Below, one piece after another: positions 43,178-52,990 of a stretch of DNA of 64,000 nucleotides. Position 1 is the stretch's first letter. Every line of letters begins with the position of its first letter. The position numbers were made by a program, and so were the translations under genes. The notes under the pieces are model-generated. The model saw only the letters and a program-made list of their open reading frames with translations. It was not told the DNA's origin and made no database searches. The stretch lies in assembly GCA_025602915.1 (NCBI GenBank), contig JAHLJZ010000116.1, positions 1 to 64,000 of the forward strand, given 5' to 3'. Origin of the DNA: Paraphysoderma sedebokerense. Taxonomy: Eukaryota; Blastocladiomycota; Physodermatomycetes; Physodermatales; Physodermataceae.

Positions 43178-44842
43178 TCAGCGCAAATGATTCAGACTGA
43201 AACATTCCTGCAAAGCCATTTCTTCCTCCTCATTATCATCACACCAGACTTTCACAAATCTCGCCACGTCAGGCACTGATTTCAAAGTCGTCTTGATTTC
43301 ACTGTATCGTGAATTCCGAGGAACAGTAAATGAAATCACCACTTTAGGGAATATCAAATGTCGCTCTCGATGCGACCTCTTCGAGACAGTACATCCACCA
43401 CTTGAGGAAGCATCTGCATTCAAACACGACGCAATCCGTTTGGCGGCATACTCAATTAGCAAACGGTTGACGGAACACAGAGGATTTCTCACCTCTACAT
43501 ATCCTAATCCGTTGTTAGACTCCAAACAAGCAATAATACTACTTTCGCTAACCCACATATCCATCAGTTTGACTACTTCCAAGTGACGACAATATCCAAG
43601 GCATCTCGATAATGCGGATTCAGATACAACGCAGCCATTCAGCACTAATTTTCTCAGCATAGGTATTTGAGCAACCTGTTCGAACACTGTACTACTCAAC
43701 TCCCATAGTCCTGAAAACTTGATACAGTTAACTACACTAGCTGGCTTTGTCATGTCTGCCAAAATCTCGTTGAAGTTGATGAGGCCCGAGTCGGAATAGG
43801 AGAATGATTCAAGTCGGGGGATAAGAAGTTGTATTGAAGGATATAGATTTTCAGTGATTTGATTCACCGAAATATTCTTAACAGATGGAAGCGTACAGAG
43901 GAGAAATTGAAGTGTAGAATCGTTGCAATGGCGGAGGTACTGTAGTGATAACGATATGATGGATTCGGAAAAAGCGAAATCTGGAGACCAGTCTCGAGTG
44001 TTTGTAAATGACCAAAACAAGTTTTCTGATCTTTCAAAACCTTTTGACAATACATTTGGGATTTCAAATCGATGAAAATGAAACCCACACAACGTTAACT
44101 TTCGTAACTTTTCAAACTTCAAAACTTTTGTCCACATCTCATAAGTCATACTCCCCGTTTCTATCATTGTGCTGTCGAGACACAGTCGCTCTAAACTGCT
44201 GTTACAATACAATTGAAATTTGTCCAACACCTCACCCAGCCGATCATAATCTAAAAACAAGTCTTTCAAACTCAATTGTTTAATTTCGGCCTTGGATGGG
44301 CACTGATACGTTGTTTCGAATGCGAACGGGTCGATAAATCGTAATTTAAGTCTGCTCAGTAGTGGTAGTTTGAGCACTTTTGGGATTAGAGCCGTCACTT
44401 GTCTTGCTAAATCTACTTCCTGAATTCCACTCGACAAAGTGTACGGAATCGGGTCGAAATGCAAAACTACTAAATTGATAAACTCTTCCACGGCGTGATG
44501 TAAAAATGGGATGACTATTTCAACTAAACCCGAGTATGATATTGATGCATCAATGATCAGTTCCCTGACGCTCCGTGTGTAGATGGTGGAATCACGAGCG
44601 GCTCTGAGAGACGATTGAAGCCGACAAATGGAGCGAATTATTGATTCAGACTGCGATTTTTTAAGAACAGCAACGGATGAGAGTTGGATGCGAGACCATA
44701 AAATCGGAATGGAAATATGGAACGATTTTTGGTTGACTGAGGCACAGGAAATAAGGTCTCTTCGGCAAAGGTTAGAATAGACGAGACCAAGAATTTCGTT
44801 CGGCAATCCGAATAGAGACGAAGATGGGTTGCTGTTATCCAT
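43178..44842 (-). CDS. F-box/leucine-rich repeat protein
   Basis: The ATG at 44842 (MDNSNPSSSLFGLPNEILGL) puts the F-box at the N-terminus (LPNEILGLVYSNLCRRDLIS, then IPILWSRI). The frame stays open upstream to 45076 without a better start. The remaining 500 residues contain irregular Leu-rich repeats (LLSRLKLRFIDP, LEKLRKLTLCGFHFHRFEIP-like, MLRKLVLNGCVVSESALSRC, HLEVVKLMDMWVSESSIIAC). This is the FBXL layout: an SCF ubiquitin-ligase adaptor with an LRR substrate-binding face. It appears intronless, unlike its neighbours. Confidence 0.82.
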   Translation of the reverse strand: MDNSNPSSSLFGLPNEILGLVYSNLCRRDLISCASVNQKSFHISIPILWSRIQLSSVAVLKKSQSESIIRSICRLQSSLRAARDSTIYTRSVRELIIDASISYSGLVEIVIPFLHHAVEEFINLVVLHFDPIPYTLSSGIQEVDLARQVTALIPKVLKLPLLSRLKLRFIDPFAFETTYQCPSKAEIKQLSLKDLFLDYDRLGEVLDKFQLYCNSSLERLCLDSTMIETGSMTYEMWTKVLKFEKLRKLTLCGFHFHRFEIPNVLSKGFERSENLFWSFTNTRDWSPDFAFSESIISLSLQYLRHCNDSTLQFLLCTLPSVKNISVNQITENLYPSIQLLIPRLESFSYSDSGLINFNEILADMTKPASVVNCIKFSGLWELSSTVFEQVAQIPMLRKLVLNGCVVSESALSRCLGYCRHLEVVKLMDMWVSESSIIACLESNNGLGYVEVRNPLCSVNRLLIEYAAKRIASCLNADASSSGGCTVSKRSHRERHLIFPKVVISFTVPRNSRYSEIKTTLKSVPDVARFVKVWCDDNEEEEMALQECFSLNHLR

Positions 44843-45409
44843 CGCAGTATCCGATACACTGTGAATATTCGAGAATCCTGCGGGGTAAAAACAACACCTA
44901 GGCGGAGTAGATTTTAACAAATGGAGGTATGTTTTTGTGATACCATTACGTGATGTCATTATGGTGGTAAGTCGATCTATCATTGTATCATCAAAATCGA
45001 ATGCTTCGATCTGGACTTTTCGTTTGCTGAAGTGACAACTCTTCCATCTAAATCTGCTTGCATATTGAAGAATCAAGGCTAATAATCATTGACAACGAAA
45101 AAGAGGTAGGCGGGATGAAAAACTTGCCCGCCTTCTAGATTGAGTTATCATACGGAGCCTTTGGTATTCTGTTACCATTGATGGACAGACACAAGAATTT
45201 TTTGCCTAGTATTGATGTGAATGTGGATGTTTGCAACAAAGGTTTTACTGTTTGATGGGGTTTGGATATCATGATTGTCCGGAAGAACGGATTTTTTAAA
45301 TTGTGCGGACGTCACTTGTCCATGTCTTCGCGCCTGCTCATAATACCAACCTAGAAACCGACATTCGCACATATATTTTGTCATCAATCATTTAGAGCAC
45401 AATACTGCA

Positions 45410-46754
45410 ATGGATTTAATGGAAATAGCCACCCGTTACCAACCATCCCGAGGGTACTACCTTGACGACTCGGACGATGTCGATTATACCACCGAATCAC
45501 CCTCGGCCCAACTGATCGACCCAACTACACAAGCCAAATTTAGCTTCAGCACTGCAGCGTCGAAACCCATTCATTGTGATGTTCTCATAATTGGGTTCGA
45601 CGTTGCTAGTGTGTACTTAAACGAGGTGGCAAGAGACAACGAGAACTGTAAAGTTATTGGCCACATAGAGGTGGAAAGTGTCAAGGTCCGTCTTGCTATT
45701 TCTTTTGGGTTTTCTGTTGTATTCGAAGAATACATAATGCTGTTTTCATATGACGATTGATGAAGGAAATACCGAAGCATTCTTTGGTATCCGAGATGCT
45801 GATGCTGTCTTGGTACATCCATGGGCCATTTTTTCTAACGACCTTGCGTTACTATCTCTATGCTTACGTGCCCACACCAGCCCTACGACATTCCAAGCAG
45901 CTTCTCAAAATCTACACATTCGTTATCGATTTCTTCTTTGCCGTCTTCCCAAAATCAAGAGATGATGAATACAGTGATTTTACCCGTTGTCGCTCAGAAT
46001 ATCGCCCCTGAACGTGCGGTTGCAATTGTCCAATCCCTGTTTGAAAATATTATTCCCCAAAAGTGCGATGACTTTGATTTTTAAGATCTCAGATTCACAA
46101 GTGACTGATTAAACTGCCCTTTGCTCACTTTTTCGACATTACGTGGTTGCCAATGTAATAGAGTAATCGTTCTGAGCGCTCTTCCTTTGTCCGATTTGAA
46201 GATTACATCGGACGATATCGATAAAATAGAAACTTGCAATCTTTTCCAATTAGTTTCAGGGAATGCTAAACCATATGTAAGTCTATACTTGTCTCTTTCA
46301 AACTCTCAATCGTTATTTGCTACTGTTATTCTTTGCCGAGCCTAACCTAACGTGTTTGATACAACCAGCCGTCCTATCCGATTCTTCCAGCTCCAAACTT
46401 TGTAGATTCCCTTGTCGGTGCGATTCTTTCACACGTATGTGTTCTGCCAAGTTTTAGCTTTACTTTCCTCCCTATTAACCAAAGAGTTCTCAATCTCTTC
46501 CATTCACCGATTTACATAAGTGTGAAATGTTTTCAATAACCGCCAATGCATTTTTCATGATGCTTCCAACGGAATTCGGTTCTGTTCAGTACAGGCCTAC
46601 AACTCTTGCGTCCCTCCGTCAATTGCTTAAACAAACACAGCTGGAGGATATAGTTCTTCCGGAAGAAAAAAATGACATGATAATACAAGACACATACAAG
46701 TTAGTATTGGGTAAAAGTATGGAAACTAGTTTGGGGAATCCATTGTATCTATAA
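45410..46754 (+). CDS. PSMG1/PAC1-like proteasome assembly chaperone
   Basis: Several short exons. Exon 1 (45410 to about 45685) starts MDLMEIATRYQPSRGYYLDD and includes CDVLIIGFDVASVYLNEVA. Later exons give EGNTEAFFGIRDADAVLV, NIAPERAVAIVQSLFENIIP, RVIVLSALPLSDLKITSDDI, LPAPNFVDSLVGAILSHCEM and TANAFFMMLPTEFGSVQYRP. The order matches PSMG1/PAC1: an N-terminal strand, a TEAF block, a middle ITILT-like strand, then PNIVxxLPAAVLSYC and the final helix. PAC1-PAC2 scaffold assembly of the 20S alpha ring. Similarity is moderate and from memory; exon borders between 45685 and 46130 are unresolved. Confidence 0.6.
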
Positions 46755-47001
46755 GTTTTGGCGATGTATTAAATGAAACGGGTTAAAGCAACAGAACTGA
46801 AAATCATAGTTTTATGTAATTTGTGGCATTCATTCCAACCTCGTTAAACGGGTATATTACAAACTCAGAATACAGACAACAACAGGAATCAAGAGACAGC
46901 TATGTAGACTAGACGAAGATAAATTTACAAATCAGGTAAATAAACATAATTGACGGTTTTAAAAAAATTTTGGTCTGATTTATAAATTTATTCGACGAAT
47001 T
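46755..47001. other. Convergent 3' flanks
   Basis: AT-rich gap between converging PSMG1-like and siderophore-synthetase genes. No gene is seen. Confidence 0.4.
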
Positions 47002-49685
47002 TTAGTTCGAGTCTGTGAGCAGTACATTCGGAATATCATGGTACAAGTACTATTTCACATGAAAAACCAAAAACGGTGGTTAGGATTTCAATAATTCGAT
47101 GGTGAATAAATAAATATGGTGAAGATAGTAAGGAGACACTCACGTTTCGGTATAACCCTCCCTTTTTCATTTCCAGAAAACACTTCATCTGAATTTCTTT
47201 CTGGAACCATACATTGTGTAAATCTGATTTTTGTGGAATATACTTTTGCACGATACGTCGTACGATAGACCATGCTTTTGTCGCGGATTCTGGGTGGTGT
47301 AGATGTGTGGATGGGGGGTTAGAAAGTGGAGGGGAAGCGTATAAATCAAGAGCTCGAATGAGACGGTGAAGGTGGGAGTGGATGGTGGTATGATGGGATT
47401 TGAGGTAAACCTGTGTATTTATGTCACGTATAGAAATAAATTGGTCAGTTTAGGATAAACGGATCGTATTAAGGAAAGGGAAAGGGAAAGGGAAAGAAAT
47501 ATTGACCTCTTCGATATTATCCGTCACGATACAACTGCCGTTCAAGACGTTGACTAATTTGAATCCCAACTCTTGGTTTGATTCCACCGTGGACCGATGG
47601 ATCCTTACGCCTCCAAAATCTCGAACGATGAAACCAAGTATCGAGTAGCCGTTGAACGATGGTGTATCGGAAGACAAAGAGGAAGTAGGTGCGACACGAA
47701 GAATCATATTTTGACTGTGACTTTCGAATGCAAAACCGCAATGCAGGAGTGGTGGAATAATGGCGTTTAATAGGTGAGTTGCGTAGCTATCGGTCGTGAC
47801 AAAAGTAATTAAATATTCCAAGACTAGGGTTAGTGATTTTGAAAGGATCGATGTAAAGAACAAGATGGTAACTGTCATCGCATACCATTCAAGAAACTCT
47901 AGTTTCTTTTCCACAGTATCCAAGCCAAACAAGTTTACCACTCTTGCCGCGTCGGTATCCATACCTTCAACACCTACCGCCCGTTCTACCAAGGCCGCAC
48001 ACACAATGTTCTGTTCACCCTCGATTCGTTCATTTTTGACTAGCTGCTGATCAAACGTTACACCTTGAAATTCAGGGTCTGTCCGGAAAATACATCCCGC
48101 TACTTTAACTTGTTCCCCCACAATTGGTGTAGGTAGAATACCAACCGACGCAATTTCTTTTGTTACCTTCAACGGTTTCGTTGTTGCCACCGATTTTGTA
48201 AATACCGCCGACTCTGAATTCGCCATTGAAATTACAAAATCTACAGAACGAGAAGAACAATACTGTATGACTTTTTCTGCCAACTCTGATATGATGGGTC
48301 CATTGTGAACGCTGTAATGACTAATGGTTCTTAAAGCAGATGTGGTGACTACACTCAACGATAATTTTAAATGGTATCCCTTCAGCACATCAGATATGGG
48401 GGAAACAGTTCGTAAACTCGCTTGTGGTAATGCAGGAATTTGATTTTGAAGGGTATAAAACTGGATATTGAGAAACTCGCAAAGGGATTGGATCGGTTTT
48501 TGTTGAGTGGAGTGGTAAGGAAGGAGAATGTGGGTCTGTGGTAGATCTATTTTGAGCGTTTTGATTAGATGGGGGTGAATGTGGGTGAGGTAGGTACCGT
48601 GAGCGTGAACGGAGGACGAAGGAAGAATGCAGAATCGAATAAAAGTATGGTATGCGAGAGTTTTCGGGATGTCAGTGGGTAATAGAGGGTGCATTGGTAA
48701 CCGAGTTCGATGCATCTTTTGATAGATAATAAATATGAATGAATGTTCCTTCAAATCAATAGAACGAATTAAAAAGGCCAAACCGGATGACTTCCATGAC
48801 CTTCAATCAGACTTTGCTCCCATTCCCATGACGATGACTCAATAGTAGGCTCCATATTTCTAAACCTGTAGAGCTCCGCTATTTCAATAACAAACATAAT
48901 TCAATGTTAAAATACCATTGGTGCACCATATAAGGAAAGAAGCAAGTACCTTGATTTTCCACAGAACTTTGCAACTCTGTGGCAATCTTCTCGGACATTT
49001 CATGATTCCAGTCACACCATTTAGCTACCATTCCTATAATACCCACCGGAGCCAAACATTCTCTCAAACCAGGCAACATATGTTCATTGGTTTCAACAGT
49101 TCTCTCTCCATTGCCAATGTACGAATTTTGTACCGAACCGTTACAACCGTTCTGTTTCCCGCCATTTGCATGACCAAGGTGTACCCCATCTTTTTTATCG
49201 AAATTCGAGGCTCCATCCCCGCCGAAATGGTACACCGTTGAAATAAAGTCTTCCGGATCGATATACTTTATCTTTTGAACCGTTTCTATACCATTCCTCG
49301 TTTCCACCTCAACGTTATCAAAATACGGTAAACTTTTCAACGGAACCAACAGTCCTTCCGTTACTTCACCATTTTTTGTTTTTGTCCCCTGTATGCCATT
49401 TATTTTTTCATCCGCATGGAAACAAACGACCCAAAATGAATAGTCAAATTCATGTAGAATTTCGTCAAGTTGGTTTAATTGAGTCGAGTTGAGGAATGAA
49501 GATTTTAGCAAGTAACCATGAATAATTCCTTCATTGATGAGTGCGGCTATCAATCGTCTCGTCGTTGCGAATTGTGCTTTTCGGTTAGCCAAGTCGGAGT
49601 TTGATGTCAGAGATAAAGTGTGGGTTGTTGCATTCGTTTTACTAACAGTTGGCGTTAATAGTTGCGGTGTAGGGAGCGGGGCCAT
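47002..49685 (-). CDS. NRPS-independent siderophore synthetase (IucA/IucC family), 6 exons
   Basis: First ATG at 49685 (MAPLPTPQLLTPTVS). Exons are about 49685-48950, 48870-48788, 48721-47886, 47792-47515, 47410-47143 and 47056-47002, giving about 750 aa. IucA/IucC signatures appear in order: WEQSLIEGHGSHP (usual EGHPxHP), LRTVSP, YHLKLSLSVVTTSALRTIS, DPEFQGV, LHCGFAFESHSQNMILRV (GxxxExHxQN) and GFIVRDFGGVRIH. The C-terminal part (LHNVWFQKEIQMKCFLEMKK) is the FhuF-like subdomain. The family adenylates citrate and couples it to amines or alcohols; in zygomycete fungi the related enzyme makes rhizoferrin. Substrates cannot be read here. Introns show it is expressed as a eukaryotic gene. Confidence 0.9.
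47471..47497. repeat. AAAGGG microsatellite in siderophore synthetase intron
   Basis: About four perfect copies of the hexamer GGGAAA lie at the 5' end of the fourth intron on the minus strand. It is polypyrimidine when transcribed. It is not the TTAGGG telomere repeat. Confidence 0.7.
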
Positions 49686-50221
49686 TTGCGGTGTCTTATT
49701 CAATGTCAAAGAAGGGAATTTAAGATAACTATATATGTAATTCCTGGAAAATTCAACGTTGACTTGTACAGATTAAAAATATTGCGAAAACGTTTGAAGA
49801 AAGCCAGTTCGATAAGTCAGCTATTGTCTGTTGGCAGTCACGGCGACAATCGTGATTCGCGCGTTAAATTAAACACATTTTCGGTCCCTCGAATGTGGAT
49901 TTGGAAGGAGGCGAGGAATTCCGATCAAGGACGTTGGCTATTAATTATATTACTATTGGTCAAAGTGTGTATGTTTGCGACTCATCTCTGTATTGAGTGG
50001 TAAACTTTCATGTATGTCCCTCTTATGTATTTGTCAGGTTATTGTCTGAAAAATTTACATACATACATATTTGCTCTATATCCTACCCTACAGTTGGAAA
50101 GTCCAAATCAACTATAATTTACAAAAAGTTCAATAGTAGATAGAAGGAAAATTGTAGTGAAATAATTTAAGTTCTGGCGGCTGCGCTCAACAAAATAGAA
50201 CTCTGAATTAATTCGTGTCCT
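49686..50221. other. Intergenic upstream of siderophore synthetase
   Basis: 5' flank of the siderophore-synthetase gene and 3' flank of the kinase fusion gene. A short ACAT/TACA run lies at about 50058-50072. I looked for a GATA-type iron-repressor box but did not find a convincing cluster. No gene is seen. Confidence 0.4.
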
Positions 50222-51966
50222 CTACCCAACAAGACCACCTCCAACTTGCAAATTCAATACCTCTTCTTCGTTTAGGGGTACTTCTTGCTTTAGTTTCTCT
50301 TTTCCTTTTCCCTTTGTGAGATCATTCTCTGTGATATCAAACCAAAAACCTTCATCTCTTGTGCCATTAGCCGACGCTTTCATGGCGGGTCCGTCTTTGC
50401 TCACCTGGCCCATCACAAAGTGTTCTCGACACACACTGACGTACGTGTTTCCAATTTCAACCGAGGCACCTGTCGTTGTGACAGTGCCGGACTGTGAGAC
50501 TCGGAGGTTCATGGTTGCCTTGCCTGATGCGGATTGGTTGTATCGGGAGAGGAGGATGCATTGATACCGAAAATGAGAATAAGTACGCATCATGTTAATC
50601 AGCCATAACGAGAATGGTATGATGATCGCAACAGATACTCACGGCCACAGTGACAAATTGTTTTTATCTCTACCAACTCATCCGCCAACGCCAGCAACAA
50701 TGCACTGCCTGGGAACGGGTTACCCTGAAAATCAGTTCGCAACCCATAGCACAATATCGGGATATGAAAGTCGTGGAGGATGTGAAGAAGCTGATGAATC
50801 TGTGGGGAATGTAGAAATTGGGCTTCGTCGACTGTTTTCGTTTGGTGTCGTTAGATACGCGGTCAATCAGGCACTTGAAAGTAGTGAGGTCTTGCAGCGA
50901 TGATACATACTTAAGAAACAAGCATACTTCTCGCCTGATTCAATCTGAGTTTTAATGTGTTGGTAGAAATCAAAATTTGCGTCGAATGTGACGGCGTCAC
51001 TTTGCAATCCGATTCTCGATGTAATCTTGCCGACTCCATATCGGTCGTCAATAACAGGACACTGAATTCAGGTAGTCGTTTGTATAGAGGATTTATCATC
51101 GAACGTCGTAGTGTTAGCATATATGCAGAACTACAGACATGAAAGAGTAGTTAAATACAAACAAATAACAAAACATTCATCCCCCGTTCCTGGTAATTGA
51201 ATGCGCTCTGTAACAATGTCGTCGATTTACCGGCATTCATGGCTGGTAGGTACGAAGTGTTCATATTGTATGACAAGGTAGGATATGAATAATTTAATAT
51301 AAATTTCATCAACCAAACATCAAGGATAGCTTGTCGGCATACCACTGTAGTAAAAGTATAATTTAGCTCCGCCCCTGATCCGGGTAGACAGATGTAGGGT
51401 GGCATTCGGCGGTAACTCGATCGATAAATCTGTAGTCCGTTTTCGTATTGATGCAGCATGCAATCACATATTTATTGCATTTCAGGGTAAATGTATTGTA
51501 AATAGCGGAAATAACAGTAGAAATTTTGATGTCAGGTTCTGTTTACAATCTCGCGGAGTTGGTGCAAGTAAACACGTCGCCAACCGTGTGTATCAACAAC
51601 CTATTCACGTTGCATGATAGCATATATTTGCAAAAGTCAAAGACTTACCGGCATTCAATATTTTCCCATTGTACGACAACACAAGACTGTCCTCCTCTAT
51701 GCGATAGCCTGAGTATGTGTGATCGGGAGTAACAGGGACAAATGGCAAGTCGACGTGCAATTGAAGATTTGGAGGGGAGAGTGTAGGAGGTTTTGAAACA
51801 GTCAGCATGCACTCAGAGCGAGATGGTTGGGGGAATGAAAGACGAGGCAAAGGAAGAGAGTACCGTGTCTCTGAATCCAGGCGAGTTTGATGGAAGCGGG
51901 GAGTGTGTGCGAAGGGAGGTTTAGGCAGGCGGTTCTGTTGGCAAAGTCTCTGACAAAGACCTGCAT
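50222..51966 (-). CDS. Ubiquitin-like domain fused to bacterial-type thymidine kinase, 7 exons
   Basis: Exons 51966-51864, 51708-51649, 51429-51343, 51242-51163, 51061-50911, 50831-50643 and 50523-50222 sum to 972 nt (323 aa), all GT-AG and phase-consistent. Residues 1-75 are ubiquitin-like: [15 protein letters not shown], Gly35 aligned with ubiquitin Gly35, [19 protein letters not shown]. Residues 76 onward are an E. coli Tdk-type kinase: [15 protein letters not shown] (P-loop), [30 protein letters not shown] (catalytic Glu), [31 protein letters not shown] and YVSVCREHF (zinc lasso), plus a charged tail of about 60 residues. The Ubl end and kinase start share exon 3, so the fusion is in contiguous DNA. 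Cleavage after GG would free a kinase starting AKLYFYYS (E. coli: AQLYFYYS). The kinase phosphorylates thymidine with ATP in dTTP salvage. Confidence 0.95.
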
Positions 51967-52130
51967 TGTGCGTAGAGTGTGAGTATCCAGATAAGAGGGA
52001 GTGAGTTGGGTGTGTGAGACTAAAGAGGGAATGTGCGGTTTTATTTAATATTAATTAAGCGTAGTAGTGGAACTGTAGAGGAACTCCGAGGACGCGTGAC
52101 AAGTGTAGGTTGCCTCTTTGCCACTTTGCC

Positions 52131-52185
52131 TAGTTGCCAGTTGCCAGTTGCCAGTTGCCAGTTGCCTAGTTGCCGGCTGATCTCC
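52131..52185. repeat. AGTTGCC heptamer tandem repeat
   Basis: About seven near-perfect copies of AGTTGCC lie between the divergent starts of the Ubl-thymidine kinase (51966) and lysozyme (52247). Two more copies occur at 52623-52636 inside the lysozyme intron. It is a short minisatellite that may alter promoter spacing. Confidence 0.8.
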
Positions 52186-52246
52186 CCCTGCAGTCAGACA
52201 GCCGGTATATCTTCGCAGACCAAGAGAACGATATACGTGGGGTCAT

Positions 52247-52990
52247 ATGCATTTTGTGTCGGTGAGTAGGCACAACAACAGTGGAATTCGAATCACGTTG
52301 CAAACTCTCCATGTATTTCATTATACAGACGAAACCTTTGGCGCTAAAAGCATAACCCGGGCAGCCAACCAGCTTTCAATCTCATTTTCACCATTTCAAT
52401 GTTCAAGACAACTCGCGGAGAATAACCTACAAGAAATAACTAAGTACAGGGAGATATTCACGAAAGCCGAGAATAATAGCGGTATTCCAGCTTCGCTTCT
52501 TGCAGCAATTGCCTCTAGAGAGAGTCATGTCGGCACTTTTGGTTTGGACGGGAACGGATGGAGTACTATGAAGGGCAATAAAGGGTGCGGGATGATGCAG
52601 GTATGGGTTGATTAATCGGTTCAGTTGCCAGTTGCCAGTTAGTATCATTCAAAATTAAGTGTCGTTCAGATCGATAAATCCGCACATAGTATCGTGGAGC
52701 AGAATGGACGGAATTCCCTTGACCACGTAATTCAAGCGGCGCACATACTGAAGAATTTCCTCGATCAAATCAAAAAGAAACCACCTTGTCGAACCTGGAA
52801 TGCCTCGGACCAACTTCGTGGAGCCGTAGCAGCGTATAATTTTGGCGTAGCCAATGTCCAGAGCATTGAAAAGTTGGACGAAGGTACATCTCCAGGCGGG
52901 AGGGAGAGGAAAGAAATGGGAGATTATTCAGCAGATGTAATAGTGCGAGCATCTGTTATTCAGGAGAAGGTATTTCCAAAAGTACTTTGA
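52247..52990 (+). CDS. Goose-type (GH23) lysozyme, 2 or more exons
   Basis: From about 52335 the product follows g-type lysozymes: TFGAKSITRAANQLSISFSP, LAENNLQEITKYREIFTKA, IPASLLAAIASRESHVG (catalytic Glu), NKGCGMMQ then across an intron (about 52601-52669) IDKSAHS, LRGAVAAYNFGVANVQSIEK and DYSADVIVRASV. The family cleaves the beta-1,4 link of peptidoglycan. An ATG at 52247 keeps the frame open to the domain, but no signal peptide is visible, so a further 5' exon may exist. It may serve bacterial digestion or defence. Such enzymes are well known in animals and sporadic in fungi, suggesting transfer; this is inference. Confidence 0.85.

Follow-up and report, generated by a model that had tools for sequence, protein, structure and literature searches.

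Can a nucleotide-salvage enzyme of bacterial type be made in a fungus as the tail of a ubiquitin-like precursor? The question is raised by Paraphysoderma sedebokerense, a small aquatic fungus of the Blastocladiomycota that lives as a parasite of algae, in which one gene appears, from its sequence, to join a ubiquitin-like tag directly to a bacterial-type thymidine kinase. The gene lies on the minus strand (51966-50222) of the window, by which we mean the whole 64,000-nucleotide stretch of DNA analysed (positions 1 to 64,000 of contig JAHLJZ010000116.1, assembly GCA_025602915.1). The reading that we favour, with a probability of about 0.55, is that it encodes a cleaved chimeric precursor, in which a diverged 75-residue ubiquitin-type domain ending in RIRGG is set without a linker on a complete bacterial-type (Tdk) type II kinase. 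The features of the gene, all on the minus strand, are:

51864..51966, minus strand: exon 1; opens with the ATG and codes for residues 1-34 and base 1 of codon Gly35; N-terminal half of the ubiquitin-like domain
51709..51863, minus strand: intron 1; donor GTACTC; splits the Gly35 codon at phase 1
51806..51808, minus strand: start ATG of the public protein model P0001, within intron 1
51649..51708, minus strand: exon 2; residues 35-54, ubiquitin-like domain
51430..51648, minus strand: intron 2; phase-1 intron within the Asp55 codon
51343..51429, minus strand: exon 3; last residues of the ubiquitin-like domain, RIRGG included, then the kinase start (AKLYFYYS); holds the junction 51368/51367
51163..51242, minus strand: exon 4; P-loop region of the kinase
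50911..51061, minus strand: exon 5; kinase
50643..50831, minus strand: exon 6; kinase, with DEAQF and the first zinc-site cysteines
50222..50523, minus strand: exon 7; end of the kinase, with the second zinc-site Cys/His, a C-terminal extension and the stop

The seven exons, separated by six introns that are all GT-AG, make a coding sequence of 972 nt, that is 323 residues and a stop; an initial annotation had proposed the same exons and counted 324 codons, a figure that includes the stop. An open frame is by itself little proof at this locus, because 288 GT-AG combinations near the exon boundaries likewise leave the frame open; the splice set chosen among these 288 is the one that keeps the Tdk motifs together with the 75-residue domain. 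Residues 1-75 end in RIRGG and are followed directly by the tail ([15 protein letters not shown]). As the initial annotation had seen, this join (RIRGG then AKLYF, at 51368/51367) is internal to exon 3, and the di-glycine abuts the tail with no linker. The exon model, the order of the domains and the exact junction are supported by the sequence. Intron 1 has the weakest of the six donors (GTACTC), judged against the usual consensus. An alternative in-phase donor for exon 1, GTGCAT, was tried and set aside: it makes a longer domain, and the profile score described below falls from 38.6 to 33.5.

The tail is a thymidine kinase. The best database match of the whole protein is P0001, a public P. 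sedebokerense protein of 322 residues named 'thymidine kinase-domain-containing protein', which is the sole public fungal protein among the 120 matches listed in a whole-protein search (8000 candidates scored); the other 119 matches listed are 56-64% identical. Residues 76-259 cover the PF00265 profile in full (176 positions, 161.2 bits) and carry the P-loop, the DE..F motif and the zinc-site Cys/His of a type II thymidine kinase, and 10 thymidine kinase sequences from the PDB match the tail. The same protein is known complete and unfused, according to Pfam, to bacterial loci and to the alignment of homologues. In a bacterial and archaeal collection, relatives were found at 571 loci, the best 80 of which are 51-60% identical; the match begins right after the junction (residue 76; 75 in P0001 numbering) in 66 of these 80 and 2 to 23 residues earlier in the remaining 14. 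Homologues that were aligned tell the same story, with 17/20 beginning MAKL(Y/H)F exactly at the junction, one having its Met after an extension and two differing, in agreement with the earlier proposal that the tail starts where Tdk continues after its Met. Throughout the 21 aligned rows, the P-loop Gly-Lys, D161, E162, F165, C219, C221, C254 and H257 (P0001 numbering) are invariant, and the A-Q in DEAQF shows almost no variation.

Where this kinase came from is addressed by a quick tree of 132 rows, in which it sits in an unstarred fork of 28 rows (SH-aLRT 90), no starred set including it. It shares the fork with rows from gammaproteobacteria, chlamydiae and metagenomes, with 8 viral rows and with one dinoflagellate-labelled protein. 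Because the tree holds few eukaryotes (besides our kinase, the known eukaryote-labelled rows are one human TK1 and the dinoflagellate-labelled one), a bacterial origin rests mainly on closeness to Tdk. Relatives on viral contigs number 11, of which 10 are in the tree (L121, with no usable frame, was excluded) and 8 share the fork of the kinase beside bacterial rows; on these placements, the kinase may have been gained by a viral route. A protein labelled as coming from a Ceratium transcriptome (P0005) is also Tdk-like, with a MAAKLYF start, no ubiquitin-like domain and 59% identity (best local alignment); it may be a second transfer into a eukaryote, or contamination. Within the P. sedebokerense assembly, an exon-by-exon search, in which only exon 6 matched, found one thymidine kinase, on two contigs. 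A thymidylate synthase gene is present as well, which means that dTMP need not come from the kinase alone.

The N-terminal domain is far more diverged. Of the 12 places listed when the assembly was searched with its 75 residues, 6 are exons of the gene itself, spread over two contigs, and the other 6 are ubiquitin units from C8 and C7 (32% identity, E 0.68); the nearest relative of the domain within the assembly is ubiquitin. Identity amounts to 25/75 with the fungus's own ubiquitin, 19 with FUBI and 16 with NEDD8. The domain is not ubiquitin proper: 25/75 is well short of near-identity to the fungus's own protein, and its Pfam score (18.8 bits) is under the cut-off of 25.4. It retains the positions of ubiquitin R72, R74, G75 and G76, and its end ([11 protein letters not shown]) is similar to ubiquitin's TLHLVLRLRGG. 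Ser stands in place of Ile44 and Val70 in both the profile and the pairwise alignments, and Lys27 and Lys50 are the only lysines left, which makes recognition by ordinary deubiquitinases uncertain. Nor is the domain FUBI in the sense of a fusion to eS30: a single eS30 locus was found, and by eye it appears unfused (ATG, intron, GKVHGSL). That FUBI had moved here from eS30 was considered and is disfavoured, the domain being nearer to ubiquitin and keeping Arg at ubiquitin position 72.

It is at the start of this domain that our model and the public one disagree. Exons 2-7 are the same in both, with 289/289 residues identical from Gly35 onward; P0001 begins with MLTVSKPP, from the ATG at 51808, and does without exon 1. 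Because that start falls inside intron 1, the first half of the ubiquitin-like domain is missing from P0001, whose precomputed Pfam list names thymidine kinase only. Exon 1 was submitted to three tests, picked successively and not preset, in the order HMM, global alignment and profile-profile comparison. A small HMM, built by ourselves from 8 divergent domains (8 seeds) and run in local mode, did not separate exon 1, with 444/1020 decoys and 333/2000 exon-1 shuffles scoring at least as high as the real sequence. When residues 1-36 were aligned globally and without gaps to the same stretch of ubiquitin (1-36), the score was 37, which is reached by 0/536 other ATG-led 36-codon open stretches in the window (max 23) and by 0/5000 shuffles (max 29). 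Compared with a ubiquitin profile of 4 sequences (two ubiquitins of P. sedebokerense together with NEDD8 and FUBI), residues 1-75 scored 38.6; none of 1020 decoy first exons (max 29.6), none of 500 exon-1 shuffles (max 28.1) and none of 500 full shuffles (max 19.2) came up to this. Exon 1 alone scored 23.0 and exons 2+3 alone 23.4, to which the public N-terminus adds nothing (23.7). Pfam is less discriminating: the 18.8 bits of residues 1-75 (E 0.0014) compare with 14.6 for the public N-terminus, a gain of about 4 bits, and with 16.3 when exons 2+3 are taken by themselves; exon 1 by itself has no match, and one decoy exon, picked as the best of 1020, scores 29.2. A ubiquitin-related domain beginning at Met1 is what the alignment and profile tests find, at a Pfam score below the cut-off and with no separation by the HMM.

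The introns provide a separate line of evidence. Both the Ub-S27a gene (C41) and the Ub-L40 gene (C60), which we name from their tail motifs, carry an intron between the first and second bases of the Gly35 codon (by eye), and intron 1 of the fusion gene is in the same codon and phase. Since this position is shared with these two ubiquitin genes of the fungus, the splice of intron 1 gains in credibility; it also points to the descent of the fusion gene from a ubiquitin gene and, taken with the profile-profile result, favours a spliced exon 1 over the public model, as far as sequence comparison can tell. The layout put forward in the initial annotation, a ubiquitin-like domain followed by Tdk, is borne out by the Pfam kinase match, the profile score and this intron, and its parallel with Ub-S27a and Ub-L40 is apt, both kinds of gene being present in the assembly. 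As for intron 2, a gene of two ubiquitin units on C7 carries a phase-1 intron within its Asp58 codon, and intron 2 likewise interrupts an Asp codon in phase 1; the two codons (Asp55 and Asp58) are paired in the pairwise alignment and not in the profile alignment. That gene, L007 (C7:528481-529018, minus strand), continues after RGG into a Cys/His-rich tail with a motif resembling an AN1 zinc finger, and is a ubiquitin fusion of known kind. One ubiquitin gene place recurs on three contigs (L012, the copy that was read, on C41, L013 on C82 and L014 on C97), two of them at identical contig coordinates, which suggests that the assembly has kept separate haplotypes or contains duplicated contigs.

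The fusion gene, too, is found twice. Contig C85 carries a copy of window positions 44698-52073 (7375 bases, 99.9% identity), on which the gene is identical except for codon 3, ATC (MQIFV) there and GTC (MQVFV) in the window. All six differences between the window and this copy (L023) lie within 51960-52030, crowded into the last 114 bases (51960-52073) before a sharp breakpoint, a pattern that gene conversion or a switch in the assembly would leave; past 52073, no match was found between the window contig and C85, and the C85 tail is in parts 79-80% like C64. The two copies may be alleles, a duplication or an assembly effect. Near the gene in the window is an open frame of the IucA/IucC siderophore synthetase family (47450-48802, minus strand, 62.5 bits), possibly another bacterial-type gene. 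On its other side, and on the opposite strand, the fusion gene is adjoined by two open pieces (52181-52990, plus strand) that, when joined, resemble goose-type lysozyme (PDB 3mgw, E 7.8e-20).

How far do these data bear on other readings of the gene? A likeness to ubiquitin that arose by chance, or a gene that is silent, would go with a Pfam score under the cut-off and with the lack of any orthologue of the fusion in the protein searches done; given that 0/500 full shuffles reach the profile score and that the kinase frame is intact over seven exons with its motifs kept, we hold this to be very improbable. It is also unlikely, if somewhat less so, that the public model is right and that translation starts at 51808 with exon 1 unjoined, the kinase then bearing a leader that keeps, of a former ubiquitin-like domain, only the latter half. 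The annotation of P0001 itself, the weak donor of intron 1 and the small Pfam gain from exon 1 all speak for such a start, and are opposed by the profile and alignment tests of exon 1 and by the Gly35 intron position shared with the fungus's Ub-S27a and Ub-L40 genes. Moreover, a message that retained intron 1 would offer the ATG at 51966 first, in a frame that passes 51808 and stops at 51804-51802.

A stronger competitor is a fusion that is real and stays uncut, its domain acting in cis on the stability, partners or location of the kinase; the initial annotation proposed that an unprocessed domain might in this way tie the stability of the kinase to the cell cycle. With just 25/75 residues identical to the fungus's ubiquitin and the surface positions Ile44 and Val70 lost, the domain could be of this sort. 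However, its di-glycine is kept exactly, in a linkerless RxRGG junction with Ala next, and this counts against an uncut fusion because permanent ubiquitin-like domains usually have no di-glycine and are set off by linkers. Divergence is also compatible with cleavage, since FUBI is likewise diverged and, in passages of PMC8354635, still cut by USP36. We consider the uncut fusion possible and somewhat doubtful, and retain the cleaved precursor as the main reading.

Under the cleaved-precursor reading, a horizontally acquired tdk gene would have been joined to a duplicated ubiquitin gene, and a deubiquitinase would cut the nascent protein after Gly75, freeing two products, a small ubiquitin-like protein and an active thymidine kinase with Ala-Lys-Leu-Tyr-Phe as its N-terminus. 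Cleavage at this site is the likely fate by analogy with ubiquitin-ribosomal precursors and FUBI-eS30, and UCH-family deubiquitinase genes are present in the assembly. The ubiquitin-like part could aid the making and folding of the foreign enzyme, as proposed for eS31 and eL40 (a cis-chaperone role of ubiquitin in ribosomal precursors is discussed in parts of PMC8122580), and the kinase would enable thymidine salvage by the parasite, its algal host being one conceivable source. More speculatively, and with fairly low confidence, we envisage that the ubiquitin copy carried on the acquired kinase became a new modifier or chaperone, released 1:1 with the enzyme, so that salvage and a private signal would issue from one message.

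A bacterial-type thymidine kinase would be unusual in a fungus in any case, because yeasts are said in passages of PMC10733785 to be without the thymidine salvage pathway, and a title cited there reports thymidine kinase to be absent from Neurospora. Its presence predicts that labelling of this alga parasite with thymidine analogues is possible. If true, the fusion extends ubiquitin precursors to a nucleotide-salvage enzyme and makes it possible to ask directly which role the ubiquitin part has when the tail of the precursor is a foreign enzyme. P0001 meanwhile exemplifies how an automated gene model can drop half of such a domain, and passages of PMC6332867 note that non-ribosomal ubiquitin fusions can be missed by automated gene prediction.

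Other fusions of this kind were sought in three ways that a diverged one could escape: none is among the best 120 matches listed of the whole-protein search (8000 candidates scored), a search with residues 1-78 gave 12 candidates with P0001 as the sole match, and a search with the ubiquitin-like domains of both copies gave no candidate. In the literature, in a search covering few subscription journals, we found no ubiquitin-thymidine kinase fusion and no Paraphysoderma thymidine kinase, and neither 'thymidine' nor 'kinase' occurs in the main text of PMC6332867. The initial annotation's statement that no such case has been described is not contradicted by the paper searches, but the general kind has been described in passages of PMC6332867.

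Compared with known systems, the gene is close in plan to Ub-S27a (eS31) and Ub-L40 (eL40), in which an RGG-ending N-terminal domain is likewise set without a linker on a complete tail and which, in this fungus, share the Gly35 intron at phase 1; here the tail is a bacterial-type enzyme whereas theirs is a ribosomal protein, and the domain has only 25/75 identity to the fungus's ubiquitin. With bacterial Tdk it shares the full PF00265 match and differs in its introns, in the ubiquitin-like domain ahead of the kinase and in its C-terminal extension. FUBI-eS30 (FAU) is similar in bearing a diverged ubiquitin-like domain with a di-glycine on a tail; in contrast, the eS30 of P. sedebokerense reads as unfused and the present domain is more like ubiquitin than FUBI. 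Processing of FUBI-eS30 has been attributed to USP36 (in parts of PMC8354635). The non-ribosomal ubiquitin fusions described in passages of PMC6332867, to actin, NiSOD, the bacterial-type membrane protein IMP, P1 and zinc finger proteins, resemble this gene in their unexpected partners, some of them bacterial-type, whereas their ubiquitin is called hyper-conserved there and the domain here is diverged. Judged against those passages, ubiquitin on unexpected partners is already described, and it is the fusion to thymidine kinase that appears to be new.
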